Below, piece by piece: positions 4,294 through 52,178 of a DNA stretch of 64,000 bases (positions are counted from its first letter, which is position 1; every line of letters starts with the position of its first letter). The stretch lies in contig KL370803.1 in assembly GCA_000701625.1 (NCBI GenBank), positions 1-64,000 of the forward strand. Direction: 5' to 3'. A program made the translations under genes and the position numbers. The DNA is from Lachnospiraceae bacterium MC2017 (lineage in GTDB: Bacteria > Bacillota > Clostridia > Lachnospirales > Lachnospiraceae). A model generated the notes under the pieces. It was not told the DNA's origin and ran no database searches. It saw only the letters and a program-made list of their open reading frames with translations.

Positions 4294-4298
4294 GTCAT

Positions 4299-6200: not shown

Positions 6201-6208
6201 GAGTTTTA

Positions 6209-6856: not shown

Positions 6857-6877
6857 GAATTGATTTTTTGATAAGTT

Positions 6878-6922
6878 AAAAAAGACCGACAGTTCAGGAT
6901 AAATGAATTGTCGGTCTTTTGG
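6878..6922. terminator. Bidirectional terminator
   Basis: Stem aaaagaccgaca (6880-6891) with tgtcggtctttt (6909-6920), extended inward by ttca/tgaa. A-run on the left and T-run on the right let it serve both the HAD gene and the convergent KamA gene. Confidence 0.9.
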
Positions 6923-13361: not shown

Positions 13362-14862
13362 TCTTCAGCGAATATTCATATGCAAATAAAGCGTCTTTAT
13401 CATCAAGCCGGATGCCGAAGATCTGCTTCATTTTGTCGAAGCGGTAAAACAATGTTGATTTATGAATAAAGAGCGCGTTTGCAGTTGCAGGAGCACTTCT
13501 GTTATTGTCAAAATATGTTTCTAGTGTGCTTATGTAATTTGTTCCATGTTCCAGATCATATTTTTTCATGAACTTTATCGAAGGGTGGATGGATGCCTCT
13601 ACGAGAGCGGGTTTATTCATCACATTCAATATATGCTTTAAGTAGTAGTCTTCATAAAAGATGATGGGAGACTCGTTAAATGTCGATAAACGCTGGGACA
13701 GAAGCCCCTGACACTGGTTAAAGTAAGCGGCACTGTCCAATAGATTATCGTATGTATAGCTGATGGTGCCGATCATATGGTTCATCGTGAGAAAGGTTTC
13801 CAGTCTGTTTAATTGTTTTTCGTCGATTTTTCTCATAGTTGACGTGGAAACCAGTGTTACAAAGCGGTTTCCAAAAATACCGGTTATACTGTTCGTAAAA
13901 ATGGTAGAAAGCTGGTGTATGTAGTAATGATAAGCCATCAGTCTGTTGAAGTTTGCTTCAAAGCTGCACGTTAAGATATAGTAGTATTCCTTTGGTTTCA
14001 CACCGAGAAATGACAGCTGTGTGAGGGAAGTTTCTTCGTCATAGCGTCTGCTGAAAAGGTCTTTTAGATACACATCGTATTTGATTCCCTGAGGATTATT
14101 ATAGGAATCGTCCTTTTGCAGCTGGATAGAAACCATCTGTCCGAGCACGTGGATTAGATCCAGATCACTTTCTGTGTGTTTGCGTTCTTTACACTGTACG
14201 CAGATATAACCTACGACTGCGTGCTTTATCCGTATACTTTCAAAAATCCATTCAAATGAATAGTCTTCAAATTTAGTCGCAAAAGGATACACCGAGTGAT
14301 AGATTCGCTCGGTGATCTTTTTTTGTTCCATATCTTCAGAATTTTTGGCACGTACGGATAGCCGGTTATTTCTGATCTCCAGATCGTTATCAACAGAAAG
14401 CTCAGGGTATGAGGCAATGATGCCGTAGCTGCTGTCGCAGACAACGATAGTATTGTTCAAATATTTGTAAGCCGTCTTTAGCAGAGAATCTATTCCGTAG
14501 CCTTTATGAAGGATGCTGAAAAGAGTCTGTTTCTGCATATCTATCCTTTGATAGGACAGTACTACATCTTCTATGAGATTGTAGAGCTCTATGAGATCAA
14601 GAGATTCCCTAATAAAGATGGAATCGGAGACCGGTTCCTCATTCCCTGTCCCGACAAAGATAATATCTCCGTACACATCGGTTTTTCCATAGGAATCATA
14701 TTTTGCGAGATACAGTACATTTGGATTTAAGTGTCCGATAGCAGCATCTGTATCATTTAAAAAGCGTATTCCGTCTGTAGAATGCCTTTTGGCGTAGTTT
14801 CCCTCTACGATTATGCCAAATTTTTTCTCTATAGCAGTAACGATATCTGAAATATAAGCCAT
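13351..14862 (-). CDS. PucR-family transcriptional regulator
   Basis: A large regulator of 503 residues. The N-terminal two-thirds look like a PucR/CdaR-type sensor region (with a central GAF-like part around NTIVVCDSSYGIIASYP), and the C-terminus is the family helix-turn-helix: LETYFDNNRSAPATANALF, then HKSTLFYRFDKMKQIFG. PucR proteins usually activate purine, sugar-acid or other catabolic operons in response to the substrate. It is divergent from the redox/acyl-transfer operon starting 195 bases away, with paired GTCGGA palindromes between them, so it is the likely controller. Confidence 0.88.
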   Translation of the reverse strand: MAYISDIVTAIEKKFGIIVEGNYAKRHSTDGIRFLNDTDAAIGHLNPNVLYLAKYDSYGKTDVYGDIIFVGTGNEEPVSDSIFIRESLDLIELYNLIEDVVLSYQRIDMQKQTLFSILHKGYGIDSLLKTAYKYLNNTIVVCDSSYGIIASYPELSVDNDLEIRNNRLSVRAKNSEDMEQKKITERIYHSVYPFATKFEDYSFEWIFESIRIKHAVVGYICVQCKERKHTESDLDLIHVLGQMVSIQLQKDDSYNNPQGIKYDVYLKDLFSRRYDEETSLTQLSFLGVKPKEYYYILTCSFEANFNRLMAYHYYIHQLSTIFTNSITGIFGNRFVTLVSTSTMRKIDEKQLNRLETFLTMNHMIGTISYTYDNLLDSAAYFNQCQGLLSQRLSTFNESPIIFYEDYYLKHILNVMNKPALVEASIHPSIKFMKKYDLEHGTNYISTLETYFDNNRSAPATANALFIHKSTLFYRFDKMKQIFGIRLDDKDALFAYEYSLKIMK

Positions 14863-14896
14863 ATTAAGTAAATCCTTTAAAACTGATGAAAGTTCA

Positions 14897-14912
14897 TCCG
14901 ACGTTTGTCGGA
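14897..14912. promoter_or_regulatory. TCCGAC/GTCGGA palindrome, candidate operator
   Basis: Inverted repeat tccgac-gttt-gtcgga in the divergent region, near the start of the PucR-type gene. A second related site is at 15020-15034. Confidence 0.45.
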
Positions 14913-15019
14913 AAAAAGAAACGATATTTAATCATTTTACTATATATCCATTGGATGTAAATAAGAACAATCCATGATAAATTTTTAACTAAGTTAGCGC
15001 ACAGCGCTTGCGTGAAAAA

Positions 15020-15034
15020 CCCGACAAAGTCGGA
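15020..15034. promoter_or_regulatory. Second GTCGGA palindrome before redox operon
   Basis: Inverted repeat with arms ccgac (15021-15025) and gtcgg (15029-15033), spaced by aaa, about 25 bases before the first operon gene. It shares the GTCGGA half-site with 14897-14912. It could also be a leader hairpin. Confidence 0.45.
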
Positions 15035-15057
15035 TTATTTATTATAGGAGAAATCTA

Positions 15058-16002
15058 ATGGGTATCAAAGTAATGGGCGTTACAGCCGGAAGAAAGAACA
15101 GCAACAGCGAAATATTGCTGAAAGAAGCACTTATTGCCTGTGAAGAAGCAGGTGCAGAGGTAACAATGATAAACCTCAAGGACTACAACATCCTTGATTG
15201 CACAGGTTGTACTTCATGTACTATCGGAATGTCACAGGGCAAGAATGTTGGTTGTGTTCTTGATGAAAAAGATGACAAGAAAAAGATCATGGACGTGCTT
15301 CTGGATCAGGATGCTGTTATCTATTCCGTTCCGACATATGACTTAATGCCGTCAGCAACTTATCTTTCATTTGCACAGAGAAGTCTTAGCTATGAGACAG
15401 CTTTCCTTGAGACGATCGGTGCGATCGAGCATAGAGACAGAGTTGCAGGACTTATCTCTGTAGGTGGTTCTACACGTGCATGGCAGTCAATGGCACTGGA
15501 AGGCATGCAGGCAACAATGTTTACAACAGATATGAAAGTTGTAGATATGATTCTCGCAACAAGAGTACCGGGACCTGCACAGTGTCTTCTTAACGATGAA
15601 CTGATAGAGCGAGCACATAAGCTTGGTGAGAATATCATAAAAGCAGTTAAGACACCTGTTGAAAAGAGAGGCTGGCTCGGAGATGAAGACATGGGCTGGT
15701 GCCCGAACTGCCACTCCAATGCACTTGTACTCGGTGAACCTCAGTGGGATGGACTTCATTATCCTATCGAGTGCCAGGTGTGCGGAGCAGGTGGAAACCT
15801 CGAGAAGACAGAAGATGGAAAGTGGAAGTTTGTAATTCAGGAAGATGGTCTGTTAAAGGATCGTACGACAGTTGAAGGACGAGCAAGACATCTTGAAGAA
15901 ATCGGACGTACACAGGGCGGCTTTTTCGAGAATCCGGAAAACAGGGAGATTGTTGGCAAGAAAATCCTCAGATATAAGGAGAAGACTTTTAAGGGTGTTT
16001 AA
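15058..16002 (+). CDS. Iron-sulfur flavoprotein (flavodoxin-like) with zinc-ribbon tail
   Basis: First gene of the operon, 314 residues. Residues 1-190 form an NADPH-dependent FMN reductase/flavodoxin-like fold (VMGVTAGRKNSNSEILLKEA at the FMN phosphate loop; IYSVPTYDLMPSATYLSF). A CTGCTSC motif near residue 49, followed by another Cys 11 residues on, resembles the 4Fe-4S site of iron-sulfur flavoproteins. The C-terminal third has WCPNCHSN and CQVCGAGG, a probable zinc ribbon or further metal site, unusual for this family. Likely role: electron transfer to or from the FAD enzyme that follows 35 bases later. Confidence 0.85.
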   Translation: MGIKVMGVTAGRKNSNSEILLKEALIACEEAGAEVTMINLKDYNILDCTGCTSCTIGMSQGKNVGCVLDEKDDKKKIMDVLLDQDAVIYSVPTYDLMPSATYLSFAQRSLSYETAFLETIGAIEHRDRVAGLISVGGSTRAWQSMALEGMQATMFTTDMKVVDMILATRVPGPAQCLLNDELIERAHKLGENIIKAVKTPVEKRGWLGDEDMGWCPNCHSNALVLGEPQWDGLHYPIECQVCGAGGNLEKTEDGKWKFVIQEDGLLKDRTTVEGRARHLEEIGRTQGGFFENPENREIVGKKILRYKEKTFKGV

Positions 16003-16037
16003 GACAATAACTTTTTAGAAAAGTGGAGGTACAAAAA

Positions 16038-17531
16038 ATGGAACAGTTACAGTCAGACGTAATCGTAGTAGCAGCTGGTCTTTCCGGATTAGCAGCAAGT
16101 ATCGCAGCAGCAGAAAACGGCGCAAGCGTTATTACTTTTGAAAAATCATCCACAACAGGTGGTGCAGCAAATATGGGTATGGGTCCTCTCGGAGTAGGTT
16201 CCAGGATACAGAAAGAGCACATGATCGCTCTTACTCCGGGTGAGGCTTTCAGAAAGCATATGTATTTCACCCACTATCGTGTAGACGCAAGAATGGTAAG
16301 AGATTACTACTTTAAGTCAGGTGACACTATCGACTGGCTTATGGACATGGGCGTTGAGTTTGTAGGTGTTCAGAGAGCTTTCAGCGCACCGGAGGCAACA
16401 CGTGCTTATTCTGACGGTGAGTTCACATGGCATGTAGTAAAGCCTGAGGACGGCGGCATGCCGGGTCCGAGATGCGCAACTGCCATGACAAAGAAGATGA
16501 CAGAGAGAGCAAAGGATCTCGGTGTAGAGTTCAGATTTGAAACACCTGTTAAGAAGATCATTATGGAAGACGGCGCAGCAGTTGGTGTTATCGCTGTTGA
16601 TAAGAACGGTGAAGAAATCGAAGCAAGAGCAAAGTCTGTGATCATCTGTACAGGCGGATTCGGTGACAATCCGGAGATGATCAAGGAGCAGACCGAGTTT
16701 GAGTATGGCAATACTATTTATAACTTTGCGATCCCGGGAATGAAGGGTGAAGGTATCAAGATGGCATGGGAAGCAGGAGCAGGCAAAGAGCCCTGCATCA
16801 TGGAGCTTATGTACCAGCTGCCTGACAACATGAATCACTTTATCCTTGATGGCGCTTTCCGCCAGCCGTGTCTCTGGGTAAACAGAAACGGACAGAGATT
16901 TATGCCGGAGGATCAGATCGCAAATACAACCTTTACAGGTAATGCGATCGCAGCACAGCCGGGTAAAGTTGCTTACTCTATCTTTGATAGTAAGCTTCTT
17001 AAAAAGTACAAGAAGAAGGGACCGGATATCGTATCTCACGTTCATCCTCACGACTTATTTGATCACTTTGATGAGCAGTGGGAGAGAGATCTGGCGGATG
17101 GTTATGAACCTATCGTTCAGGCTGACACTATCGAGGAACTTGCTGAGAAAGCCGGCATTGATGTAGAGGGTCTTGTAAATCAGATCGAAGAGTACAACGA
17201 GATGTGCGAAAACGGATACGACGAGATCTTTGAAAAGGATCGTGCATATATGCAGCCTATCGAAAAGGCTCCGTTCTATCTTTGCAGAGAAAATGTAGGA
17301 GCTTACGGATCGCTCGGCGGAGTAAAGATCAACCACAAGACACAGGTTCTTACTCAAGACGCAAAGGTTATTCCGGGTCTTTACTGTGCAGGAACAGACG
17401 CGTGCAACATTTTCGGAGACAGTTATCCGTTCATCCTTTCCGGAAACACAATGGGATTCTGCCTGAACAGCGGACGTATCGCCGGTGAAAATGCTTCTGC
17501 AAGCGATGAGGATTTTGATGATTTTGAGTAA
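16038..17531 (+). CDS. FAD-dependent reductase, fumarate-reductase-flavoprotein family
   Basis: A 497-residue enzyme of the FAD_binding_2 family. The N-terminal dinucleotide fold is VIVVAAGLSGLAASIAAAE (first Gly of GxGxxG replaced by Ala), with FEKSSTTGGAANMG next, and a C-terminal FAD segment with GLYCAGTDACNIFGDSYPF and SGNTMGFCLNSGRIAGE. Relatives reduce or dehydrogenate a carbon-carbon bond (fumarate, urocanate, ketosteroids, enoates). Residues of the fumarate site are not obvious, so the substrate is unknown. I start at the ATG at 16038 because gtggaggt lies just upstream; the GTG at 16023 is inside that site. Confidence 0.9.
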   Translation: MEQLQSDVIVVAAGLSGLAASIAAAENGASVITFEKSSTTGGAANMGMGPLGVGSRIQKEHMIALTPGEAFRKHMYFTHYRVDARMVRDYYFKSGDTIDWLMDMGVEFVGVQRAFSAPEATRAYSDGEFTWHVVKPEDGGMPGPRCATAMTKKMTERAKDLGVEFRFETPVKKIIMEDGAAVGVIAVDKNGEEIEARAKSVIICTGGFGDNPEMIKEQTEFEYGNTIYNFAIPGMKGEGIKMAWEAGAGKEPCIMELMYQLPDNMNHFILDGAFRQPCLWVNRNGQRFMPEDQIANTTFTGNAIAAQPGKVAYSIFDSKLLKKYKKKGPDIVSHVHPHDLFDHFDEQWERDLADGYEPIVQADTIEELAEKAGIDVEGLVNQIEEYNEMCENGYDEIFEKDRAYMQPIEKAPFYLCRENVGAYGSLGGVKINHKTQVLTQDAKVIPGLYCAGTDACNIFGDSYPFILSGNTMGFCLNSGRIAGENASASDEDFDDFE

Positions 17532-17551
17532 ATAACAGAGGTTTGACTTAG

Positions 17552-19639
17552 ATGAAAATTTTTATTGATGGAAAAGAAATTGAAGCAAGAGAAGGCGTGT
17601 CCGTTCTAGATGCGGCTCTTGAAGCAGGCGTTTTTATTCCTCATCTTTGCTCTCATCCTGATCTGGAAGCAAAAGGCGGCTGTCGTCTCTGCTCTGTTGA
17701 AATAGACGGAGTAGAGGGGGCAGTCCCCTCTTGTAAGACTATCGTGGAAGACGGCATGAAGATCACGGTTAATGGACCGGCGGCAGATAAGGTCAGAAAG
17801 ATGGCAATGGAGCTTATCCTTGCTACTCACCCTGCTGATTGTACCGGATGCCCGAAGTACGGAAAGTGCGAGCTCCAGTCCATGTATCAGTATATGGGCG
17901 TGAGTCCTGAGAGATGGAGAAAGAAGTCCAGAGCAGTTCCGAATGATGAGAGTAATCCGCTCATTTCACATCTTTTCACACGATGCGTGAGATGCGGACG
18001 CTGTATCCGTGCCTGCCAGGAAATGCGCGGTGTAAAGATACTTGATTATGTAAAAACTGATGCAGGTATCCGTGCAGGTGTGCCTGACGGCAAGAGTCTT
18101 GCAGACGCAGGCTGCCGTTTCTGCGGTGCTTGTATCGAAGTTTGTCCGACAGGTTCCATCATGGACGCATTTAAGATAATGAAGCCTGAGCGGTCATATG
18201 AAGAAAATGTGGTTCCTTGCAGAAGCACCTGTCCGGCACATATCGACATACCGGAATATATCAGGGCCGTAAAGGAAGGCGACTTTGACAAAGCAGCTGC
18301 GATCATCAGAGAAAAAGTTCCTTTCCCTGAAACACTTGGCTCTATATGTACAAGAAATTGTGAGAGTAACTGTAAGAGAGGTGAGATTAACTCTCCTGTA
18401 TCTATATGCAGACTGAAAAAAGCTGCTGCAGTAAATGAGAGCGGTGCATGGAAAGAGCGAGTTCGTAAAGATCCTGCGACCGGCAAAAAGGTAGCAGTGA
18501 TCGGAGCAGGACCGTCCGGACTCACAGCGGCATATTACCTTACAAAGAAAGGTCATGAAGTAACTGTATTTGAGAAAAATGAAAAAGCCGGCGGTCAGTG
18601 CCGCTACGGTATTCCTTCATACAGACTTCCTGATGAACTGCTCGACAGAGAGATCAATACTATTTTAGAAGCTGGATTTACATTAAAGACCGACACAGAA
18701 TGTAGTGAACCTGCAAAGCTTTTAACTGAAGGCTTCGACGCAGTCCTTATTTCAATCGGAACACATCAGGGAACAAAGCTTCCTATTGATGGAAATGATC
18801 TTGAGGGTGTCTATGTAAACGCTGACTTCCTAAAGGCTGCAAGAGAGGGAAATCCTCTCCCTGTGGGAGACAGAGTAATGGTACTCGGTGGCGGAAATGT
18901 TGCGTATGACTGCGCACGTACTGCTATCAGACAGGGAGCAAAGGAAGTACACATCGCCTGTCTTGAAAATCTCCAGCAGATGACATCATCGGCTGATGAG
19001 CGACAGGAGGGCGAGGAAGAAGGAGTTATCCTTCATGAAGCACATTCTTTCCTGCGTATCACAGGAGAAAACAAGGTCAGCGGAGTAGAACTTAAAAAGG
19101 TGAATAAGTTCTATTTTGATGAAAACAGAAAAGCGATCCTGGAGCTTGAGGAAGGTTCAGAGCATATCGTTGAAGTCGATAACGTAATATTTGCAGTAGG
19201 ACAGAAGCCTCTTGGCACTGATAAGATGGGCGTTGAGCTTACTCACGGACCGTATATCTCAGCAAATGACAGCAAAACATCTATGGATGGTGTCTTTGCA
19301 TCAGGTGACGTAGTGACAGGAACACGTTCCGTTATCGAAGCGATCGCAGGCGGAAGAAATGCAGCGATGGCTATTGATAAGTATCTCGGTGGAGACGGAG
19401 ATATCAGCGAAACACTGACAGATAGAAAAGAACCTGAAAAATATATCGGACGTATCGAAGGCTTTGCAGGATTAGAGAGGACAGAAGCCGAAGTGATGGA
19501 TGCAGATAAGAGAAAGTGTGGATTTGACGCCATAGAGAAGCCTCTTACCTGTGATCAGGCCAAGTGCGAAGCCGGACGATGCCTGCAGTGTGATCTAAGA
19601 ACAAAAATATCCAAAGTAAAGCTTTGGAATGAGTACTAG
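17552..19639 (+). CDS. NuoG-like iron-sulfur / GltD-like flavin fusion
   Basis: An electron-transfer protein of 695 residues. Residues 1-80 are a 2Fe-2S domain (Cys33, 44, 47, 61); then a His-Cys3 cluster (His93, Cys97, 100, 106), two 4Fe-4S motifs (CVRCGRCIRAC, CRFCGACIEVC), a further Cys-rich GltD linker (CRSTCPAHIDIPEYI, CTRNCESNC), and a glutamate-synthase-small-subunit-like FAD/NAD(P)H module from about 310 (VIGAGPSGLTAAYYL; VLGGGNVAYDCARTA). This layout resembles NAD(P)H-linked subunits of bifurcating hydrogenases, formate dehydrogenases and NfnB. It probably passes NAD(P)H electrons to the flavoproteins of the operon. Gap to the previous gene is 20 bases. Confidence 0.9.
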   Translation: MKIFIDGKEIEAREGVSVLDAALEAGVFIPHLCSHPDLEAKGGCRLCSVEIDGVEGAVPSCKTIVEDGMKITVNGPAADKVRKMAMELILATHPADCTGCPKYGKCELQSMYQYMGVSPERWRKKSRAVPNDESNPLISHLFTRCVRCGRCIRACQEMRGVKILDYVKTDAGIRAGVPDGKSLADAGCRFCGACIEVCPTGSIMDAFKIMKPERSYEENVVPCRSTCPAHIDIPEYIRAVKEGDFDKAAAIIREKVPFPETLGSICTRNCESNCKRGEINSPVSICRLKKAAAVNESGAWKERVRKDPATGKKVAVIGAGPSGLTAAYYLTKKGHEVTVFEKNEKAGGQCRYGIPSYRLPDELLDREINTILEAGFTLKTDTECSEPAKLLTEGFDAVLISIGTHQGTKLPIDGNDLEGVYVNADFLKAAREGNPLPVGDRVMVLGGGNVAYDCARTAIRQGAKEVHIACLENLQQMTSSADERQEGEEEGVILHEAHSFLRITGENKVSGVELKKVNKFYFDENRKAILELEEGSEHIVEVDNVIFAVGQKPLGTDKMGVELTHGPYISANDSKTSMDGVFASGDVVTGTRSVIEAIAGGRNAAMAIDKYLGGDGDISETLTDRKEPEKYIGRIEGFAGLERTEAEVMDADKRKCGFDAIEKPLTCDQAKCEAGRCLQCDLRTKISKVKLWNEY

Positions 19640-19649
19640 GAGGATAGAA

Positions 19650-20222
19650 ATGAGTAGCACAGATAAGATCAGAGAATTAAAAGAAGATCAGTGTGTCGTT
19701 GATGTCCTTCTGAAAACTGTTCAGGGTCATGCCTGCAAAGACTGCGGAAAGTGTGTTTTTGGTTATGAAGGTATCACACAGCTTGAAATGATACTTAAAG
19801 ATATTACAGAGAAGAAAGGTCGGGCATCTGACAAGGCTCTTTTAGAAGATCTTTGTGAAATGATGAAGAACCAGTCGCTTTGCGAGGATGGTGCTGATAT
19901 CGCAGATGCGGTAACTGAAGCACTCAGCTCCTATGGAGATATTTTTGACGAACATATTTCAAAGAAAGCGTGCCGGGCAGGCGTATGTAAGAAGTTCATG
20001 ACTTATCACATTCTGGCAAGCAAGTGTATAGGATGCGGTGAGTGTATGGATGTTTGTGAAGACGAAGCGATCCTCGGAAAGAAAAAATTTGTACATGTTA
20101 TTGACCTTGACGAGTGTACTCTCTGTGGTAAGTGTATGAGTGCCTGCGATGAGGACGCGATAGTTATGGCAGGTGCAGTTAAACCCAAATGCCCGAAGAA
20201 ACCTATTCCCTGCAAAAAATAA
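19650..20222 (+). CDS. NuoF-tail iron-sulfur domain plus 2x[4Fe-4S] ferredoxin
   Basis: The protein (190 residues) begins with the NuoF-type 4Fe-4S region (HACKDCGKCVFGYEG at about residue 31 with a later Cys, KKACRAGVCKKF), followed by a two-cluster ferredoxin domain (CIGCGECMDVCEDEAI; CTLCGKCMSACDEDAI) and a Cys/Pro/Lys tail. The FMN- and NADH-binding part of NuoF is absent, so it is an electron wire, not a dehydrogenase; the upstream fusion would supply the nucleotide site. The ATG at 19650 follows ggagg directly, 10 bases after the upstream stop; an in-frame ATG at 19629 lies inside that gene. Confidence 0.87.
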   Translation: MSSTDKIRELKEDQCVVDVLLKTVQGHACKDCGKCVFGYEGITQLEMILKDITEKKGRASDKALLEDLCEMMKNQSLCEDGADIADAVTEALSSYGDIFDEHISKKACRAGVCKKFMTYHILASKCIGCGECMDVCEDEAILGKKKFVHVIDLDECTLCGKCMSACDEDAIVMAGAVKPKCPKKPIPCKK

Positions 20223-20234
20223 GAGGATAAATAT

Positions 20235-21542
20235 ATGAAGAAATTCGGAAAATATTCAAGAAGCGTATCCATCATCGGTGTAGGATGTACGCCGTTCATG
20301 TATACGGTAGATAACGAAGAAACTAACGGACTTACAGAAGGTGAGCTTTTCGGTTATGCAGCACTTAAGGCAATGGAAGATGCCGGCGTAAACCCTCAGG
20401 ATGTGGATTTTTATTTCCACGGTTGTGCAAGCCCGCTTAATGGATCAAATTACCTGACTCCAAATGTACAGATCGCAAACTGGTTTGGAATGAAGGGTAA
20501 AGGTTCTATCCATCACTCCGAGGCATGCTGTACAGGTTACCTTGCGATCGAGCAGGCTGTAAATGCAGTTGCATCCGGAAAGTATGACTGCGTACTCACA
20601 GGTGCGGTTGAATTTGGCGACAGCACACCGAGCCCCGCAGATAATGTAGAGTCTCCTAAGCATCCGTACAAGCGTGACAAGATGACTATGGAGAAGTTCT
20701 TAAAGACTACTTCATGGCTCTATGACCGCACATATACGAGAAGCCTCATGGCAGGTCAGGAACTCATCTATGATGATGCTGCAGAGTGGTATGTCCGCAC
20801 AAGAGGCATTTCTGCTGATGATATGAATAAGACTCTTAATGCAATGTGCGTAAATAACAGAAGAAATGCTTCTGTAAATCCTCTTGCTATCGAAAGAACA
20901 ACTTACGAGGAACTTGCAGAGAATGCCGGAATGACACTTGATGAGTACATGAACTCACCATATAACCCGAAGATGGGTGATTTCCTCCGTGCCGGTGGTC
21001 TGGAGCTTAAGTGTGACGGTGCTGCAGCATGTATCGTATGTGCAACAGAAAAGATCCCGGAGATCGCAAAGAATCTGAAGCATAAGCCTATTGAGGTTCT
21101 TGGCATCGGAAGCGCAGCATGTGAAGCAACTACACCTCACTTTGAAGTTCGTGCAACAGAGGAAGCTGTAAAGCAGGTATATGAGTCAACAGGACTTTCC
21201 GGGGATGATCTGGATCTGTTCTTTGCAAACGACTTCATTATCACATCTCACCTTGTTTCAGCAGAAATCGCAGGATATCTGCCTTACGGTGAGGGTTGGA
21301 AATATATCTGTGAAGGACGTACTGCATGGGATGGTGATAAGCCAATTAACTCTAACGGAGGAAGAACTTCCTTCGGTCATGCTCATGCTGCATCCGGTCT
21401 TGCTGATATGTATGAAGCCTGCAAACAGATGTGGAATGAATGCGGCGATCGTCAGGTAAAGAAACTGCCGAAAACAACAATGCTCCGCGGATATGGCGGC
21501 GCTCAGAATGTAGCTGCTATCATCATTCGGACAATGGACTGA
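20235..21542 (+). CDS. Thiolase-superfamily acyltransferase
   Basis: The protein (435 residues) has the thiolase fold. A nucleophile-type Cys lies in HSEACCTGYLAIEQA (about residues 95-109), and the thiolase His loop is recognisable as SNGGRTSFGHAHAASG (GHP changed to GHA). The usual C-terminal CxGGG Cys is missing (GYGGAQN), as in SCP-x and archaeal thiolases that work with a DUF35 partner, here encoded 15 bases downstream. Likely chemistry: acyl transfer or carbon-carbon cleavage on a thioester. With an ACP and phosphate acyltransferase next door, it probably delivers an acyl group to ACP or CoA. Substrate unknown. Confidence 0.85.
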   Translation: MKKFGKYSRSVSIIGVGCTPFMYTVDNEETNGLTEGELFGYAALKAMEDAGVNPQDVDFYFHGCASPLNGSNYLTPNVQIANWFGMKGKGSIHHSEACCTGYLAIEQAVNAVASGKYDCVLTGAVEFGDSTPSPADNVESPKHPYKRDKMTMEKFLKTTSWLYDRTYTRSLMAGQELIYDDAAEWYVRTRGISADDMNKTLNAMCVNNRRNASVNPLAIERTTYEELAENAGMTLDEYMNSPYNPKMGDFLRAGGLELKCDGAAACIVCATEKIPEIAKNLKHKPIEVLGIGSAACEATTPHFEVRATEEAVKQVYESTGLSGDDLDLFFANDFIITSHLVSAEIAGYLPYGEGWKYICEGRTAWDGDKPINSNGGRTSFGHAHAASGLADMYEACKQMWNECGDRQVKKLPKTTMLRGYGGAQNVAAIIIRTMD

Positions 21543-21557
21543 CAGGGAGGATTTACC

Positions 21558-21983
21558 ATGGCTATTAAATTAGAGAAGATCGTTGAGAAATTTTATCTTT
21601 CCCTGGAAGAAGGAAAGATCATGGGACGCAAGTGCCCGAAGTGCGGACATGTAGAGTTTCCGCCTGTATATGCCTGCAATGAATGTGGAAATTATGAGAC
21701 TGAATGGGTTGAACTCAGCGGAAAAGCAAAGCTTCATTCTATCGTTCTTCCTGCGGCTCTTTCTTCAAAGCCTGAGTACAAAAAAATGGGCAAGTATGCC
21801 TACGGTGAAGTAGAGATCGAGGAAGGAACAAGACTTAATGCAGTTGTCCGCGGTATCAGCAGGAAAAACCGTGCAGAACTCACAGAGAAGCTTCCTCTCA
21901 ATATCCACGCATCGATCATTGATCGTGACGGCGGCTTTAAAACAGTTATTTTTGATCTGGATGATGAGTACTTAAATAATTAA
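21558..21983 (+). CDS. DUF35 zinc-ribbon OB-fold protein
   Basis: The protein (141 residues) has an N-terminal helix, a four-Cys zinc ribbon (CPKCG at about residue 27 and CNECG at about 41) and an OB-fold (LSGKAKLHSIV, YAYGEVEIEEG). DUF35 proteins form stable complexes with SCP-x-like thiolases, as in archaeal thiolase/HMG-CoA synthase and bacterial ChsH2 systems, and help bind the CoA or acyl substrate. The position right after the thiolase-like gene fits that role. A 21-base sequence repeated inverted at 24591-24611 begins at the base after the stop codon. Confidence 0.9.
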   Translation: MAIKLEKIVEKFYLSLEEGKIMGRKCPKCGHVEFPPVYACNECGNYETEWVELSGKAKLHSIVLPAALSSKPEYKKMGKYAYGEVEIEEGTRLNAVVRGISRKNRAELTEKLPLNIHASIIDRDGGFKTVIFDLDDEYLNN

Positions 21984-22004
21984 GATGTAAGGGTCAAAAG
22001 TAAA
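21984..22004 (+). repeat. 21-bp inverted repeat, left copy
   Basis: This stretch (beginning gatgtaagggtc) is the exact reverse complement of 24591-24611. The two copies bracket the ACP, phosphate-acyltransferase and kinase genes. The left copy stands alone; the right copy is the end of a longer folded element. Confidence 0.85.
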
Positions 22005-22061
22005 ATTCCGGATCAGAATGATCAGTATTCATATAGCAAACATAAAAAGGAGATAAAAACA

Positions 22062-22301
22062 ATGTCAAGACAGGAAATTTTAGAGCAGGTATTAAATATG
22101 GTAGCAATGGCTTATAAGAAGGATGTTTCCGAGCTTTCAGAGACAACTTCTTTCAAGACTGACTTAAACGGTGCATCCGTACAGATGGTAGCACTTGTAT
22201 CCGAGATCGAGAATGAACTTGATGTAGCTCTCATGCTCGCTGACGCAAGCGGATGTGAGACGATCGCAGACCTTATCAATCTTATCGAAGAAGAGCTGTA
22301 A
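22062..22301 (+). CDS. Atypical acyl carrier protein
   Basis: A small acidic four-helix protein of 79 residues matching the ACP family. Alignment to standard ACPs puts the phosphopantetheine Ser in LNGASVQMVALVSEIE, so the near-universal DSL is replaced by ASV. The rest (DLNG loop, NELDVALMLADASGCETIADLINLI) is typical of a specialised ACP. It lies between the thiolase/DUF35 pair and the phosphate acyltransferase, so it probably carries the pathway intermediate rather than serving fatty acid synthesis. A phosphopantetheinyl transferase gene is 3.6 kb downstream. The aaaaggaga site precedes the ATG. Confidence 0.85.
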   Translation: MSRQEILEQVLNMVAMAYKKDVSELSETTSFKTDLNGASVQMVALVSEIENELDVALMLADASGCETIADLINLIEEEL

Positions 22302-22311
22302 GAGGGAAAAA

Positions 22312-23316
22312 ATGAGTGTAATAGACAAGATTTTTGAAAAAGCAAAGTTGAATCCTCAGCGGGTGGCTTTTCCTGAGGCTCTCAATGAAAAGATGATGCA
22401 GGCCGCATACGAAGCAGGATCTGAGGGATATATCATTCCTATACTTGTAGGTGATAAAGTTGAGATCGAAGCTGCCATCAAAGAGCGTGGTTATAACGCA
22501 GATGTATTCAGGATCGTAGATGTTAATGACGAAGAGTACAAAACACTTCTTGTTGAAAAGTATACAGCACTTCCTGATACACGCTTAAAAGAAAAGGCTC
22601 TTCGCCGCCGCATGGAAGATAAGCTCCAGTTTGCAATGGTAATGCAGGCATCAGATGAAGCAGATGTAACATTTGCAGGAATCGACTATACAACAGGTGA
22701 CGTACTCCTTGCAGGACAGATGATAATCGGCATGAAGCCCGGAATTGCTACGATTTCCAGCATCGGACTTTGCGATATCCCGGGATATGAGGGAAGTGAA
22801 GGATCACTTCTCGCTATCGGAGACAGTGCTGTATGTACAAATCCGAATTCTGAACAGCTCGCAAGTATCGCTATTTCTGCATGTGATACAGTAAAGTCTC
22901 TTCTTGACTGGGAGCCCAGATGCGCATGTGTCTGCTACTCAACACTCGGAAGCGGACAGGGTGAACTTATTGATAAAGTTACAGAAGCCGTAAAGATCGC
23001 AAATGAGCTCCGTCCTGATCTGGCAATAGACGGCGAATTCCAGCTCGATGCAGCGATCAATCCGATTGTCGCAAAGAAAAAAGTCGGCAGAGAGAGCAAA
23101 GTTGCAGGTCAGGCAAATGTGGTTATCTGGCCGGATCTCAATGTCGGAAATGTAGCTGTAAAGCTTATCCAGCAGTTCGGTCATGCAGATGCTTACGGTC
23201 CGATGCTTCAGGGCTTTAAGAAAGTGGTTTGCGACTGCTCAAGAAGCGCACCGGTGTCAGAACTTAAAGGAAATATCGTGATCAGCGCAGTAAGAGCTGC
23301 AGGTGAAAAGAGATGA
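22312..23316 (+). CDS. Phosphate acetyl/butyryltransferase-family enzyme
   Basis: The protein (334 residues) belongs to the PTA_PTB family that exchanges CoA (or ACP) for phosphate on an acyl thioester. Family marks: RVAFPEALNEKMMQAAYEAG at the N-terminus and DGEFQLDAAI, VAGQANVVIWPDLNVGN, FGHADAYGPMLQGFKK at the C-terminus, with a phosphate-binding SAPVSELKGN. It lacks the extra N-terminal domains of long Pta. The start at 22312 follows agaggg. It overlaps the kinase gene by 4 bases (ATGA), implying tight coupling: thioester to acyl phosphate, then ATP. Confidence 0.9.
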   Translation: MSVIDKIFEKAKLNPQRVAFPEALNEKMMQAAYEAGSEGYIIPILVGDKVEIEAAIKERGYNADVFRIVDVNDEEYKTLLVEKYTALPDTRLKEKALRRRMEDKLQFAMVMQASDEADVTFAGIDYTTGDVLLAGQMIIGMKPGIATISSIGLCDIPGYEGSEGSLLAIGDSAVCTNPNSEQLASIAISACDTVKSLLDWEPRCACVCYSTLGSGQGELIDKVTEAVKIANELRPDLAIDGEFQLDAAINPIVAKKKVGRESKVAGQANVVIWPDLNVGNVAVKLIQQFGHADAYGPMLQGFKKVVCDCSRSAPVSELKGNIVISAVRAAGEKR

Positions 23317-24443
23317 AAAAATATAAAGTATTTGCAATAAATCCCGGATCGACTTCCACCAAGATCGCTCTATTTGAGGGTGACGAGTGCATTTATACAC
23401 AGAATGTATCTCATGACGCCGGAGAACTCGCAAAGTATGAAACTATAAGTGACCAGCTTCCGTATCGCAGAAATATGATCTTTGATCTTTTAAAGGAAGC
23501 AAATATCTCAATAGATGACGTTGACGTATTTGTAGGTCGCGGCGGCGGACTCTTTGCCATGGAAGGCGGAACCTACGAGATCGATGATCTGATCCTCGAA
23601 CATGCACGTACAATGGCAAACGGAGTTATCCATCCGGCAGCTCTCGGCCCTCAGCTCGCGGCTGAGTTTGCATCAAAAAATGGTGCAAGAGCAATGGTAG
23701 TTAATCCGCCTGATGTAGACGAGTACCAGGATCTTGCCAGAATGACCGGTATCAAAGGCATATACCGTACAGCACATCTTCATTCACTTAACTTAAAAGA
23801 AACTGCGATACGTCACAGTAAAAACGTACTTAATAAAAAGTACGAGGATTGTAACTTCATTGTGTGCCATATCGGAGGCGGTGTATCCGTATCTGCTCAC
23901 AGAAAAGGAAAAATGGTCGACGGATTTGATATCGTTGGCGGAGAAGGCCCGATGGCGCCTACACGCTGTGGAAGCATCGCAGTTGCCGATCTTTTAAGAT
24001 ACATGAAAAAAAACAATCTGAGCGTGGACGAGGTAAAACCTCTTGTAACAAAAACAGGTGGTTTTGTAAATCATACAGGAATCTCAAGCGCAGTCGAACT
24101 GAAAGAAAGAGCTGCCAAAGGCGATAAGTACGCAGAAATGGTATGGCACAGCATGATCTATCAGATAGAGAAGTGCATAGGATCTATGGCTGCGGTTCTT
24201 CACGGTGAAGTTGACGGTATCCTCCTCGGAGGGGGCATGGCGTACAATGATGATCTCGTGCAGTTCATAAAGGACGCATGTTCTTTTATTGCACCTGTAT
24301 TCGCTTATCCCGGAGAATTTGAAATGGAAGCCATGGCAGCCGGTGCAATCCGTGTGCTGAACGGTGAGGAAGAACTCAAGAAATATACCGGAAAGCCTAT
24401 TTTTAGCGGATTTGATTTTGAGATGTCAGGGTCAAAAGGTTAA
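23313..24443 (+). CDS. buk: Butyrate-kinase-family acyl kinase
   Basis: Acyl-phosphate:ADP phosphotransferase of the acetate/butyrate kinase superfamily, 376 residues. The phosphate-1 loop INPGSTSTKIALFEG, the VGRGG motif, HIGGGVSVSAHRKGKMVDG and the C-terminal ILLGGGMAYNDDL are all diagnostic of butyrate kinases. It would make ATP from the acyl phosphate produced by the preceding enzyme. Substrate may be butyryl, branched or another short acyl group. The last residues (MSGSKG) are encoded by the start of the repeat element at 24424, so its tail may have been replaced by repeat sequence. Confidence 0.9.
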   Translation: MKKYKVFAINPGSTSTKIALFEGDECIYTQNVSHDAGELAKYETISDQLPYRRNMIFDLLKEANISIDDVDVFVGRGGGLFAMEGGTYEIDDLILEHARTMANGVIHPAALGPQLAAEFASKNGARAMVVNPPDVDEYQDLARMTGIKGIYRTAHLHSLNLKETAIRHSKNVLNKKYEDCNFIVCHIGGGVSVSAHRKGKMVDGFDIVGGEGPMAPTRCGSIAVADLLRYMKKNNLSVDEVKPLVTKTGGFVNHTGISSAVELKERAAKGDKYAEMVWHSMIYQIEKCIGSMAAVLHGEVDGILLGGGMAYNDDLVQFIKDACSFIAPVFAYPGEFEMEAMAAGAIRVLNGEEELKKYTGKPIFSGFDFEMSGSKG

Positions 24444-24611
24444 AATCCGATTGTGCTTGCACAAAGAGGATTGAGACCTTGGGACCCGCAAAACACGAGC
24501 AAGTAGCGTTATTACGCGGAATGCGAGTGTTTTAGGATTGCGGGAATTGCGTAGCAATGAAGCAATCCGTGACATCAGTAAGGGGCAAAATTTACTTTTG
24601 ACCCTTACATC
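24424..24611. repeat. Folded intergenic repeat element with terminal inverted repeats
   Basis: The ends are inverted copies of one another (gggtcaaaag near 24428 and cttttgaccc at 24595-24604). Inside are gcgt/acgc (24506-24515) and ggattgc with gcaatcc (starting near 24535 and 24561, enclosing attgc/gcaat). The right end is also its own hairpin, gtaagggGcaaaa with ttttgAcccttac, followed by the next gene. It may terminate or attenuate transcription between buk and DUF1097. Related fragments lie at 21984-22004 and 1928-1973, so it is a dispersed repeat. Confidence 0.7.
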
Positions 24612-24635
24612 ATTTTGAGTGACTAAGGTGAGATC

Positions 24636-25151
24636 ATGTCTGAGAAAACTATAAATAAAATAACGCTTGCATTGGGGATAGCTCTGCTTCCCCCAATATG
24701 GGCGGTTCTGTCTCCTTATGTCGGGATCACGACAGGCGCTGTTGCGCTTATCTGCGCAGGATTATATGTAACTAATGGAAATAAGGTAAGTGATGCATTA
24801 AAGATCACGCTTGGATTTCTATGCGGTGACATCTGGGCAGTACTTGCTGTTTTTATAATGGAGAAACTGTCATTTAACCCAAATACAGAACTTTATGGTA
24901 CACTTTTTGTACTCGGAGGAATTGCAGTACTTATAGGTGAGACCATACCGAAATATATCTTTACCCCGGCATGGCTCTGCGGATGGGCAATCGGACTCAC
25001 TATAATGGGACCTATGAGTATCGGTGAGATAGGAACACTTCCCATACAGATAGGCGCTGCGATGATAGCCGGAGTTGTTTATGTAGGAATAGGCGTAGAT
25101 GCATTTCAAAAAAAGCTGATATGTTTTATTCGAAATAATAAAGCAAGATGA
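24636..25151 (+). CDS. DUF1097-family membrane protein
   Basis: An integral membrane protein of 171 residues with five or six hydrophobic helices (ALGIALLPPIWAVLSPYVG, TGAVALICAGLYV, GFLCGDIWAVLAVF, TLFVLGGIAVLIGE, AWLCGWAIGLTIMG, MIAGVVYVGIGVDAF). The pattern, with short polar loops and Gly-rich helices, fits DUF1097, whose members are uncharacterised but often proposed as transporters. It overlaps the next gene by 4 bases. It may import the substrate or export the product of the upstream pathway, but the repeat element between them leaves cotranscription open. Confidence 0.8.
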   Translation: MSEKTINKITLALGIALLPPIWAVLSPYVGITTGAVALICAGLYVTNGNKVSDALKITLGFLCGDIWAVLAVFIMEKLSFNPNTELYGTLFVLGGIAVLIGETIPKYIFTPAWLCGWAIGLTIMGPMSIGEIGTLPIQIGAAMIAGVVYVGIGVDAFQKKLICFIRNNKAR

Positions 25152-25891
25152 TAGAAACAAAAAAACTTTCAGACAGGGTATTTATATTAAAGGACCGTCT
25201 GGACTGCTATGCAAATTTAATACTAGGAAGCGAAAAGGCACTTTTATTTGATACCGGAAGTGGTTCGGATGATCTGAAAGCGGCAGTGGAGGAAATAACA
25301 TCTCTGCCGCTTCTTGTAATTGCGAGCCATGGTCATTTTGACCATATCGGAGGCAGTATCTTTTTTGATAGGGTCTATATGTCGAAAAAAGACAGGAATA
25401 TCGTCGAGTCCTATGAACTGGAAAAACTTCGTGAATGGATAGATAAGAACTATGACTCTGATGATTTCAGACAGGTAAAGGACCTTGATTTTGATAGTTT
25501 TACTCTTGGCGATATAGATGGTCTTATAGTTGAAATGCCCGGTCATACCAGCGGTTCTGTCGGCGTATACCTTCCGGAATTAAAACTCTTGCTAAGCGGT
25601 GATGCGCTTACGCCCGTCATGTGTCTGTTTTTTATGAATCATGGAACGATAGAAGATGAGCTGAATACTATAAAAATGGTTCAAAAACTTGATATTACAC
25701 ATTTTTTGACAGCTCATAGTGATATACTTTTTTCTGTATCAATTCTTGATCGAATGAAGGACTGTCTCATAAATTCTAAAGGTAAAAAATTTCATAAATA
25801 TAGATATCCAAGACCTCCATTTAGTGAAGGTTATTTCTACCTTCATTCTATGGAAGATGAATCGGTTGGAGTAATAGTAAGCGAGCGATAA
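25148..25891 (+). CDS. Metallo-beta-lactamase-fold hydrolase
   Basis: The protein (247 residues) carries the metal motif SHGHFDHIGG (HxHxDH, about residues 59-64), a later His in PGHTSGS, the bridging Asp in LLSGDALTP and the C-terminal His in LTAHSD, a complete glyoxalase-II-type metal site. Family members hydrolyse thioesters, lactams or phosphodiesters. In this context, between a DUF1097 gene and a phosphopantetheinyl transferase, an acyl thioesterase role is attractive but only inferred. It is translationally coupled to both neighbours. Confidence 0.88.
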   Translation: MIETKKLSDRVFILKDRLDCYANLILGSEKALLFDTGSGSDDLKAAVEEITSLPLLVIASHGHFDHIGGSIFFDRVYMSKKDRNIVESYELEKLREWIDKNYDSDDFRQVKDLDFDSFTLGDIDGLIVEMPGHTSGSVGVYLPELKLLLSGDALTPVMCLFFMNHGTIEDELNTIKMVQKLDITHFLTAHSDILFSVSILDRMKDCLINSKGKKFHKYRYPRPPFSEGYFYLHSMEDESVGVIVSER

Positions 25892-25893
25892 AA

Positions 25894-26580
25894 ATGGTTA
25901 ATCCTTCAGATAAAGATAGTAACTGCTGTGCAGTGATAGATATATACATTTTGGATATCAGAGAAATTAATGGGGAGTGTGACAGTATAATTTCTGTTAT
26001 TGCTCCTCATTATGTTCAGAAATATAAAAATGCCAAAGAACCAGATGAGAAAATGCGTGAACTGGGAGCTGGTTTTCTTCTTTATAAATATCTGGGCATA
26101 ACGAGTGATGAAGATCTTTCTTTTAATGAATATGGAAAGCCGTTTTTGAATAAAAACGGTGACTCAAGATGCTTCAGTTTGTCTCACAGTGAAAAATATG
26201 TGGTACTGGCAGTTTCAGACAGAGAGATCGGCGCAGACATCGAGTGTAGCGATAATCTGACCCTTAACATATTGAAAAGGGTATTACCGCCAGAAAGATT
26301 CAAGAAATTAGAGCGTGAAGATTACACTGATGAATTTCTTTTACAAAATAACAGACATGAACCATGCAGCGAACGGAAACTTGTATGGACAAAAAACTGG
26401 ACAGCTGTTGAAGCTGTTCTGAAAGCTGATGGGAGAGGATTTTTCCTTGATATTGAAAATGATGACTCCTTTATGGACGGATGGCATATCGACAGTATCT
26501 TGATTGATGAAAAATATGTGCTGAGCTGCGCATGCCATGCGGAAAACACTGTTATACATAATGTTTTAAGAGCGGTCTGA
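25894..26580 (+). CDS. 4'-phosphopantetheinyl transferase (Sfp type)
   Basis: The protein (228 residues) would attach the phosphopantetheine arm of CoA to a carrier-protein Ser. Motifs seen: FNEYGKPFLN and FSLSHSEKYVVLA (N-terminal half), the metal motif IGADIE (about residue 111), and WTAVEAVLKADGRGF, which corresponds to WxxKEAxxKxxGxGF but has Val in place of the first Lys. It begins 2 bases after the hydrolase. A dedicated transferase near an atypical ACP supports the idea that this ACP needs its own activation. The missing Lys may lower activity or reflect adaptation. A terminator follows directly. Confidence 0.87.
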   Translation: MVNPSDKDSNCCAVIDIYILDIREINGECDSIISVIAPHYVQKYKNAKEPDEKMRELGAGFLLYKYLGITSDEDLSFNEYGKPFLNKNGDSRCFSLSHSEKYVVLAVSDREIGADIECSDNLTLNILKRVLPPERFKKLEREDYTDEFLLQNNRHEPCSERKLVWTKNWTAVEAVLKADGRGFFLDIENDDSFMDGWHIDSILIDEKYVLSCACHAENTVIHNVLRAV

Positions 26581-26620
26581 ACCGAAAATAATTGGTTCAG
26601 ACTGCTTTTTTCATTTTTTT
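26575..26620 (+). terminator. Terminator of the PPTase unit
   Basis: Stem gtctgaacc (26575-26583) with ggttcagac (26594-26602) followed by two T-runs. The stem overlaps the stop codon of the transferase gene. Confidence 0.92.
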
Positions 26621-51076: not shown

Positions 51077-51090
51077 AATGGAATATGTGT

Positions 51091-52176: not shown

Positions 52177-52178
52177 GA

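Follow-up and report, generated by a model that had tools for sequence, protein, structure and literature searches.

A candidate flavonoid catabolic operon of Lachnospiraceae with proposed energy conservation through a dedicated acyl carrier protein

The locus analysed here raises the question of which compound is processed by an operon that joins flavin and iron-sulfur redox proteins to a thiolase, a dedicated acyl carrier protein (ACP), a phosphotransacylase and an acyl kinase. It lies in a stretch of 64,000 nucleotides from Lachnospiraceae bacterium MC2017 (contig KL370803.1, positions 1 to 64,000), hereafter called the window. Our answer, to which we give a probability of roughly one half, is that it is a catabolic operon for flavonoids (polyphenol aglycones) that would conserve energy by thiolase-DUF35 cleavage onto ACP, followed by the Pta-family and butyrate-kinase-family (Buk) reactions. 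Flavonoids as the substrate class are well supported by sequence comparison, while we infer the bond cleaved, the direction, the loading of ACP, the electron path and the ATP yield. A preliminary description of the window had named this gene set in this order, and all named genes are indeed present with the domains it gave:

13351..14862, minus strand: PucR-type regulator (HTH_30), divergent from the operon
15058..16002, plus strand: FLR-family ene-reductase (FMN_red domain)
16023..17531, plus strand: FAD ene-reductase, VprA-like (FAD_binding_2; in-frame ATG also at 16038)
17552..19639, plus strand: NuoG-GltD fusion, probable NAD(P)H oxidoreductase (NuoG-type Fer2/Fer4 and GltD-type Pyr_redox_2)
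19629..20222, plus strand: NuoF C-terminal Fe-S domain with ferredoxin-type 4Fe-4S domains (NADH_4Fe-4S and Fer4)
20235..21542, plus strand: SCP-x-like thiolase (Thiolase_C_1; SCP2-type thiolases among the PDB matches)
21558..21983, plus strand: DUF35 protein (zf-ChsH2/OB), thiolase partner (zf-ChsH2; OB part 21.4 bits, below the cut-off of 27.1)
22062..22301, plus strand: dedicated ACP (PP-binding)
22312..23316, plus strand: Pta-family phosphotransacylase (PTA_PTB, PF01515, 280 bits)
23313..24443, plus strand: butyrate-kinase-family acyl kinase, Buk (NF002834, 403.5 bits against a cut-off of 222; TIGR02707, 365.6 against 289.1)
24636..25151, plus strand: DUF1097 membrane protein (DUF1097 domain), which may be an uptake partner
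25148..25891, plus strand: metallo-beta-lactamase-fold (MBL) hydrolase (Lactamase_B)
25894..26580, plus strand: Sfp-type phosphopantetheinyl transferase, PPTase (ACPS, 25.8 bits against a cut-off of 25)
26568..26609, plus strand: terminator-like hairpin of 18 pairs, a consensus match only

The genes from 15058 to 26580 form a single-strand run divergent from the PucR gene, with all open reading frames (ORFs) intact according to the ORF list and domain search; position 14862, previously given as the start of the cluster, is the start codon of the PucR gene itself. Intergenic gaps are −11 to 78 bp through Buk, then 192 bp, and then −4 and 2 bp. The 18-pair hairpin is the longest plus-strand terminator-like site within or ending the run, the other such sites there having 5–7 pairs. 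Since such sites over the whole region were set against shuffled sequences (terminator-like, 15 versus 9.9, sd 3.0; promoter-like, 18 versus 27.9, sd 5.6), weight is given only to this hairpin.

Flavone reductase (FLR, 7D38) is the sole PDB sequence match of the window flavoprotein at E 0.001 (E = 3e-29), in a near full-length alignment that includes the C-terminal extension (window residues 4–295 to FLR 2–288), and it is also the top Foldseek match (7d38, E = 5.2e-21, TMq 0.71; runner-up 3.8e-8). By sequence and fold, this ISF-like protein, labelled earlier as an "iron-sulfur flavoprotein", is a full-length relative of FLR. It retains the flavone- or FMN-contacting FLR residues G146, S147, W149, H271 and I275, with the flavone-contacting His and Ile present. 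In a multiple alignment of 49 rows, which correspond to 48 distinct module proteins as the window protein was entered twice, G146, W149 and H271 are found in 48/48 and I275 in 46/48, and S147 occurs in 24/24 window-type proteins versus 3/24 paralogues. Window-type rows do not keep D103, having Gln instead (His in two), or G106, where the same alignment has a gap. According to the available text of the FLR report, replacement of G106 by Ala abolishes activity and S147 is dispensable, S147A being slightly above wild type. The missing G106, the Gln at D103 and the identity of approximately 30% to FLR count against the flavonoid reading. As to identity, the best window-type rows reach 31.6% on the multiple alignment, and BLAST gives about 29–30% for the copies in loci L071, L073 and L096. 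That report searched down to a limit of at least 30% identity, and a C. ljungdahlii FLR that shares 29.69% is active. Sister operons hold closer FLR relatives, with 59% identity in L071 and L081, 45% in L054, where the thiolase is 88% identical to that of the window, and 53% over 137 residues in L073, where the gene is cut by the locus end. Because L071 has a window-type flavoprotein together with the 59% relative, the window type probably reduces a substrate other than that of FLR.

The second enzyme had been called fumarate-reductase-like; it has an FAD_binding_2 domain, and the nearest NCBIfam model is vinyl phenol reductase VprA (NF053717), at 327.7 bits against a cut-off of 600, with three relatives at 281 to 323 bits, all below 600. 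An identity as fumarate reductase or flavocytochrome c was rejected, since the positions that we take, from the residue names of fumarate reductase, to be its dicarboxylate-binding Arg and His hold other residues, and the replacements are conserved in alignments of the module's own FAD proteins. It need not substitute for Fcr, because L057 and L066 have an OYE-type enzyme as well, a 43% relative encoded between the flavoprotein and this reductase. In L126, too, the window-type flavoprotein adjoins an OYE-type enzyme (nearest NCBIfam model BaiCD), and one lies beside it in L127 and L128, as judged from the likeness of the protein start. In L096 the FAD reductase is fused to the NuoF-tail domain. 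The available FLR report leaves the electron donor of FLR open, and the operon offers a candidate in its NuoG-GltD and NuoF-tail proteins.

Sister operons contain a DgpA2-like C-glucosylflavone oxidase whose best PDB match is the DgpA2-isoorientin complex (E = 5.5e-124). Such genes at a level of at least 50% occur in only 9/95 module loci, with none in the window, and its own genome has no match for the oxidase at E 1e-60. This genome carries a C-glycoside-deglycosidase-type operon (PF19906) with two other GFO proteins. In one genome (L123/L124), the same redox genes, ACP, Pta and Buk lie beside DgpA2, the C-glycoside deglycosidase beta subunit and DgpC. Within one set of 250 genomes, eight of them thiolase-positive, PF19906 is found in 6/8 thiolase-positive genomes versus 19/250 overall (p = 2e-6), and an FLR homologue in 7/8 versus 19/250 (p = 3e-8). 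The phloretin hydrolase family PF18089 has no match in the own genome at E 0.001 and exceeds its cut-off in 15/250 genomes; because it co-occurs in 4/8 thiolase-positive genomes, the thiolase is not a clean replacement for phloretin hydrolase.

In the thiolase, C98 and H382, which we take to be the nucleophilic Cys and the His of the GHx motif, are invariant in 15/15 aligned rows. Profile matches are to benzoylsuccinyl-CoA thiolase and PhlC (distant); the substrates of PhlC and benzoylsuccinyl-CoA thiolase are acylphloroglucinols and aryl ketones. The best NCBIfam model for DUF35 is BbsA with 28.6 bits, far under the cut-off of 250. DUF35 is fused to thiolase in L024 and L115 and to ACP in L031–L033, S39 of ACP is invariant in 16/16 aligned rows, and acyl-ACP thioesterases occur in two related loci; the DUF35-ACP fusions, these thioesterases and the PPTases appear to tie ACP to the thiolase. 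Pta, assigned before to the Pta/Ptb family, has the expected domain and is closer to phosphotransacetylases than to Ptb, and its C-terminal motif DCSR[SG]APV[ST]E[LI] is common to the window and six other cluster Ptas and does not occur in the L032 Pta or in housekeeping Pta copies. Among 36 genome-contig loci with full flanks (approximately 10 kb either side), DUF35, ACP and Pta are present in 36/36 and Buk in 35/36, so the genes are conserved together in other genomes, which the preliminary description had made a test of its reading. DUF1097 is found in 25/36, a PPTase in 18/36 (33/95 module loci) and a PucR-like match in 21/36, often with just 23–28% identity. DUF35 is near the thiolase in 76/80 genome-contig loci, and in these 80 the partners share the thiolase strand (DUF35 76/76, ACP 73/73, Pta 68/68, Buk 64/64, FAD reductase 33/33, NuoG-GltD 34/34, FLR-type 38/41), which is clustering beyond chance.

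In the proposed route, NuoG-GltD and the NuoF-tail protein would relay electrons from NAD(P)H to the two flavin ene-reductases, the FLR-family and the VprA-like FAD protein, which would convert a flavone-type compound first to a flavanone and then to a dihydrochalcone-type aryl ketone. Cys98 of the thiolase, with DUF35, would attack this ketone and release a phenol, e.g., phloroglucinol. It would pass the arylpropionyl group to the dedicated ACP, which would carry it on its phosphopantetheine arm after activation by the neighbouring PPTase. The Pta-family enzyme would then form acyl phosphate from acyl-ACP and phosphate, and Buk would yield ATP and the free acid. We propose more tentatively an ACP-based substrate-level phosphorylation in which flavonoid-derived aryl ketones are cleaved onto a dedicated ACP, not hydrolysed or CoA-bound, and the bond energy is kept as ATP; the cleaving head would be interchangeable (mostly thiolase-DUF35, a CocE/NonD-type hydrolase in L123), and NuoG-GltD/NuoF-tail would be the missing donor for FLR-type ene-reductases. 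An anaerobic reduce-and-cleave route leading from ACP-bound acyl to ATP had already been suggested, and it fits the conserved thiolase-DUF35-ACP-Pta-Buk set, the fusions, the thioesterases and the PPTases, its direction being interpretation. The preliminary description named no substrate and drew an analogy to glycine reductase; comparative evidence points to flavonoids, so that the FLR-Fcr/EnoR-Phy route is the nearer one to compare. The Pfam and NCBIfam matches listed for the operon, at most 25 per protein, include no GrdA/GrdB-type families, which we take to be the glycine reductase proteins. Neither an assignment of the cluster to a known pathway nor a pathway like the proposed one was found in the open-access collection searched, which omits most subscription papers and preprints, in agreement with the preliminary description.

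The same ACP-Pta-Buk module could serve a thiolase cleaving some other beta-dicarbonyl, either the cyclic 1,3-dione of a phenol ring after reduction or a 1,3-dicarbonyl derived from sugar in 3-keto-glycoside breakdown. Some relatives lie beside Gfo/Idh/MocA, xylose-isomerase-like and aldo-keto reductase genes, one neighbour matches 2-hydroxy-3-keto-glucal hydratase (E = 3.5e-44), and retro-Claisen ring opening is known from the available account of phloroglucinol degradation. The range of the thiolase family extends beyond flavonoids, because its relatives have differing partners in L028 (sugar-type enzymes), L033 (Lar-type genes) and L035 (a thiolase of about 30% identity paired with an acyltransferase). 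We nevertheless regard this reading as unlikely: the window type lacks sugar enzymes and carries two flavin reductases, of which one is FLR-like, and the sugar genes are explicable by deglycosylation of flavonoid glycosides, and DgpABC relatives are present. Quite unlikely is a route as proposed with CoA as the working thiol and ACP as scaffold or minor carrier. Known thiolases, Pta and Buk work with CoA, and Pta retains the SR motif of solved relatives, but the ACP found in every full-flank locus, its invariant Ser, the DUF35-ACP fusions, the nearby PPTases and acyl-ACP thioesterases, and the retention of ACP in L123, in whose genome no thiolase was matched at E 1e-20, argue for ACP rather than CoA as the putative acceptor. 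In a biosynthetic direction, which seems improbable to us, Buk and Pta would load ACP with an acid, and a phenol or polyketide would be C-acylated by the thiolase to give a natural product; the thiolase does match PhlC by profile, PhlC-type proteins make diacetylphloroglucinol, and biosynthesis is where carrier proteins and Sfp-type PPTases typically occur, but the Pfam search of the run gave no domain of a PKS, an NRPS or a tailoring enzyme, the run is under PucR control, and sister loci have transporters and deglycosylation genes. Very improbable is a flavonoid-directed redox part sharing only its promoter with a thiolase-ACP part for an unrelated acid: within about 10 kb the FAD reductase is unseen in 16/36 and NuoG-GltD in 14/36 full-flank loci, but where present both are always on the thiolase strand, and FLR-type or DgpA2-like genes share a run with the thiolase part in L071, L109 and L115.

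If the flavonoid route is true, flavonoids would be a source of ATP at the C-C cleavage step, at which, to our knowledge, no energy is gained in the described gut route. It would also explain the retention of the genes in rumen and gut Lachnospiraceae, provide marker genes for energy-yielding flavonoid breakdown and give ACP a catabolic role in ATP formation. The conserved cluster suggests that the gut and rumen bacteria carrying it gain ATP from flavonoid cleavage.

Available accounts describe FLR-CHI/Fcr-Phy flavonoid degradation in Flavonifractor plautii, Eubacterium ramulus and Clostridium butyricum, where reduction is followed by hydrolysis of the C-C bond by phloretin hydrolase. The operon resembles it in the FLR-family ene-reductase, the predicted reduction to dihydrochalcone and the anaerobic Clostridia, whereas it has thiolase-DUF35-ACP with Pta and Buk in place of phloretin hydrolase and adds the VprA-like FAD protein with NuoG-GltD. 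Anaerobic phloroglucinol degradation of Clostridium scatologenes likewise leads from polyphenol carbon to acyl phosphate and ATP, but by hydrolytic DPGC and TAL and an acetoacetyl-CoA thiolase, with no acyl carrier protein noted in the available text. PhlACB, the diacetylphloroglucinol acyltransferase, has a similar pair of SCP-x-type thiolase and DUF35 protein, the PhlC match being distant; in contrast, the operon has no second ketosynthase-type protein by Pfam, a dedicated ACP and a putative catabolic setting. The benzoylsuccinyl-CoA thiolase BbsAB is also a thiolase-DUF35 pair and cleaves next to an aryl ketone, but its substrate is a CoA ester, and the Pfam hits of the run include no CoA-activating domain (CoA ligase or CoA transferase). 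Finally, relatives of DgpA2, PF19906 and DgpC from C-glycoside deglycosylation adjoin the module or share its genomes; DgpABC takes the sugar off, and the module would process the aglycone.

The regulator and the operon are placed in the window as follows.

13351-14862, minus strand: PucR-type regulator gene, divergent from the operon
15058-26580, plus strand: twelve genes, from the ORF analysis of the window

The intergenic gaps measure -11 to 78 bp through to the kinase, followed by 192 bp ahead of DUF1097 and then by -4 and 2 bp. Terminator-like sites, called as consensus matches only, number 15 across the region versus 9.9 (sd 3.0) in shuffles, and the one at the operon end (26568-26609, 18 pairs) is the longest plus-strand hairpin of the run. 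The domains that the preliminary description had named for the operon genes were borne out by Pfam and NCBIfam, and the Pfam hits of the operon proteins include no CoA ligase, CoA transferase, PKS or NRPS domain. Directly past the terminator lies a gene for an 810-aa protein (26760-29192) with a HAD-type N-terminal and a histidine phosphatase (branch 2) C-terminal domain. Elsewhere in the window, a single 965-aa ORF (42510-45407) carries the odd pairing of glycosyl hydrolase family 3 (58-419) with prephenate dehydratase (702-882), and 49958-59564 encodes a type I-like restriction subunit (ResIII, EcoEI_R_C) and two Methylase_S specificity proteins.

In the family set of 250 genomes, thiolase matches at E <= 1e-20 are present in 10, and 8, own genome included, reach E <= 1e-100, a threshold that was chosen after seeing the matches and that excludes the weaker matches of G024 and G033. 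When the thiolase alignment was run against genome_contigs, in which each of 84,980 species has one genome, 291 relatives were confirmed. The best 80 of these 291 were analysed; going by their labels, most belong to Lachnospiraceae or to further Clostridia, and many are MAGs of rumen or gut origin, with Butyrivibrio, Pseudobutyrivibrio, Eubacterium plexicaudatum, Petralouisia, Schaedlerella and [Clostridium] citroniae among the carriers, and the labels outside Clostridia are Anaerolineaceae (locus L071) and Chloroflexi (L073). Because neighbour clustering includes spurious antisense ORFs, counts were taken from tblastn. Among the 36 of 80 loci with about 10 kb on either side of the thiolase, DUF35, ACP and Pta are found in 36/36 and Buk in 35/36, followed by the FLR-family protein (29/36), DUF1097 (25/36), NuoG-GltD (22/36), NuoF tail (21/36), PucR (21/36), FAD reductase (20/36), PPTase (18/36) and DgpA2-like proteins (4/36). 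Across all 80 loci, whose genomes are not all independent, ACP is near the thiolase in 73-74 depending on the limits used, and the tested partners share the thiolase strand save for 3 of 41 FLR-type matches. The larger set of 95 loci represents 94 places, since L022 falls inside L070, and L094 and L107 originate from one MAG. A plasmid search with the thiolase returned 476 records, all below 60% identity and at most 29% among the 20 matches listed.

In some loci DUF35 is also physically joined to the ACP or to the thiolase. By BLAST, DUF35 and ACP form a single protein in L031-L033; Pfam, run on two of these fusions, gave PP-binding in both and zf-ChsH2 in L032 only. In L024 and L115 a single ORF encodes both thiolase and DUF35. 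The ACP serine is invariant in 16/16 aligned ACPs, and thiolase Cys98 and His382 are kept in 15/15 aligned sequences; profile matches of the thiolase are benzoylsuccinyl-CoA thiolase, an acetoacetyl-CoA thiolase and PhlC. PPTases, of three kinds in all, occur in 33/95 loci, and acyl-ACP thioesterases lie within the L031 and L033 clusters, with a weak third match (25%) in L074. Comparison of the Pta active site gave no sign favouring ACP or CoA. The FAD reductase and NuoF tail are united in one 912-aa ORF in L096, which supports the proposed electron path; the predicted FAD-reductase structure is poor (pLDDT 74.9) and its structure matches add little. Some of these clusters have further neighbours. 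L031 encodes a [FeFe] hydrogenase-type protein and a FrdA-type flavoprotein (5147-6892 and 3127-4842) beside its thiolase, DUF35-ACP fusion and thioesterase, and in L033 (6248-9139) tRNA_Me_trans (HUP), AIRC and Ni_insertion proteins, with domains like those of LarE, LarB and LarC, stand directly upstream of the thiolase. In L028 (4674-13727) and L030, from two genomes, thiolase-DUF35 accompanies xylose-isomerase-like, Gfo/Idh/MocA, aldo-keto reductase and ROK genes, and one protein of this cluster type matches 2-hydroxy-3-keto-glucal hydratase.

Relatives of the genes for flavonoid C-glycoside deglycosylation recur around the module in some loci. A Gfo/Idh/MocA protein is repeatedly found next to it, the L109 copy having as best PDB match "P581a DgpA2 and isoorientin complex" (E 5.5e-124), and DgpA2-like proteins at least 50% identical to the L124 copy occur in 9/95 loci. 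In the genome of L123 and L124, the flavoprotein (77%), FAD reductase (85%), NuoG-GltD (66%) and NuoF tail (57%) lie beside a DgpA2-like protein, a PF19906 C-glycoside deglycosidase beta subunit and DgpC (best match "P581a DgpC1", E 2.4e-108), and the same neighbourhood holds Buk (62%), Pta (59%), ACP, MFS and DUF1097 with regulators between. No thiolase match at E 1e-20 was found in this genome, and at L123 17005-18753 a CocE/NonD-type hydrolase occupies the place of thiolase-DUF35, with relatives of ACP, Pta and Buk. Such a hydrolase is likewise accompanied by ACP, Pta and Buk relatives near 5545 of L110, where a thiolase is also present. On one contig and strand, L133 and L029 together carry DgpB, DgpC, DgpA2, FAD reductase, NuoG-GltD, NuoF, ACP, thiolase and DUF35, interspersed with other genes. 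The window's own genome encodes on another contig a PF19906 protein (122.5 bits) and a DgpC-like protein (28%), together with two Gfo/Idh/MocA-like proteins, a GH39-AraC-like protein, a GPH-like transporter and an ABC system. Flavonoid use by ruminal microbes is an entry in a review table (PMC4392294).

Over the 250 genomes, Fisher tests, which ignore phylogeny and here span 249 genera, associate the 8 thiolase genomes with PF19906 (19 genomes above the Pfam cut-off, of 20 with a match; overlap 6, p 2e-6), with DgpA2-like proteins (12 at E 1e-100, of 22 among the matches listed; overlap 5, p 5e-6), with PF18089, the phloretin hydrolase family (15 above cut-off, of 17 with a match; overlap 4, p 5e-4), and with FLR homologues (19; overlap 7, p 3e-8), the last overlap partly counting the module's own flavoprotein in the same cluster. 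The thiolase had been expected to exclude phloretin hydrolase, and it does not, as 4 of the 8 thiolase genomes have both; this co-occurrence argues against the thiolase simply replacing phloretin hydrolase. No phloretin-hydrolase-family match was found in the window's own genome, and 15/250 genomes of the same set have one above cut-off.

In the flavonoid reading, which we give a probability of about 0.5, a flavone would be converted to a dihydrochalcone by the two reductions required, a pathway described in PMC11868195. The thiolase would then perform the cleavage of phloretin hydrolase using a thiol where that enzyme uses water, and the acyl group would therefore be able to pass to phosphate and ADP; we infer those steps that go beyond gene content. 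Inositol or diketo-sugars were rejected as main substrate, as they fit only some relatives. Steroid or bile-acid side chains, whose DUF35-thiolase pairs we take to resemble those found here, were rejected as resting only on that likeness, and fumarate-like dicarboxylates because the binding residues are absent. A search of an open-access collection, which leaves most subscription papers and all preprints outside its scope, yielded no paper joining thiolase, DUF35, ACP and butyrate kinase, and related searches, judged by titles and the opening of abstracts, brought up no pathway of this kind. The word "thiolase" is absent from the main texts of PMC11170127 and PMC11868195; in the part available of PMC10470551, a thiolase serves for acetoacetyl-CoA and ring opening is hydrolytic. 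The protein families are known, and their combination and, if the reading is right, its energetic logic were found nowhere in the literature searched.

The product of 15058-16002 has a single solved-structure match, 7D38 (E 3e-29). According to PMC7862272, 7D38-7D3B are structures of FLR, the flavone reductase from Flavonifractor plautii; this ene-reductase is unable by itself to use NAD(P)H, and its electron chain is said there to be one that "remains to be explored"; G146, S147 and W149 contact FMN, S147 and H271 contact apigenin, I275 stacks on its A/C rings, activity is lowered in G106A, W149A, H271A and I275A and not in S147A, and the crystal models are without residues 48-67. The predicted fold of the window protein (mean pLDDT 87.2) has FLR as top PDB match (E 5.2e-21), followed by an azoreductase (E 3.8e-8). 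When FLR was aligned with 48 distinct module proteins (window-type L043 and L066 being excluded by a length filter), G146, W149 and H271 were kept in 48/48 and I275 in 46/48 (two Leu), S147 was present in 24/24 window-type proteins versus 3/24 paralogues, and D103 and G106 were not retained in window-type rows. Cysteines C48, C51, C54 and C66 are invariant in 23/23 aligned sequences, and the FLR cysteines stand at 46, 49, 52 and 64 by a count along its aligned row; a labile Fe-S cluster at these positions would account for why a separate electron donor is needed.

Sister loci combine this flavoprotein with other reductases. An OYE-type enzyme is next to the window-type flavoprotein (68%) in L126-L128, that of L126 being PF00724 with BaiCD as nearest NCBIfam and those of L127 and L128 called from N-terminal likeness to it; L057 and L066 also encode an OYE-type enzyme (43% identical to that of L126), placed on the same strand with the flavoprotein gene on one side and the FAD reductase gene on the other. 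L054 encodes a protein 45% identical to FLR adjoining a thiolase 88% identical to that of the window, and L073 an FLR relative (53% over 137 residues) ended by the locus edge. L071 carries on one strand FAD reductase, NuoG-GltD, NuoF, FLR, a 193-aa protein and the window-type flavoprotein, then Buk, thiolase, DUF35, ACP, Pta, AcpS and an MFS transporter. Since FLR and the window-type flavoprotein are both present there, the latter may act on a substrate other than flavones. The FLR copies of L071 and L081 are 59% identical to FLR, whereas the window-type proteins are only about 30% identical to it.
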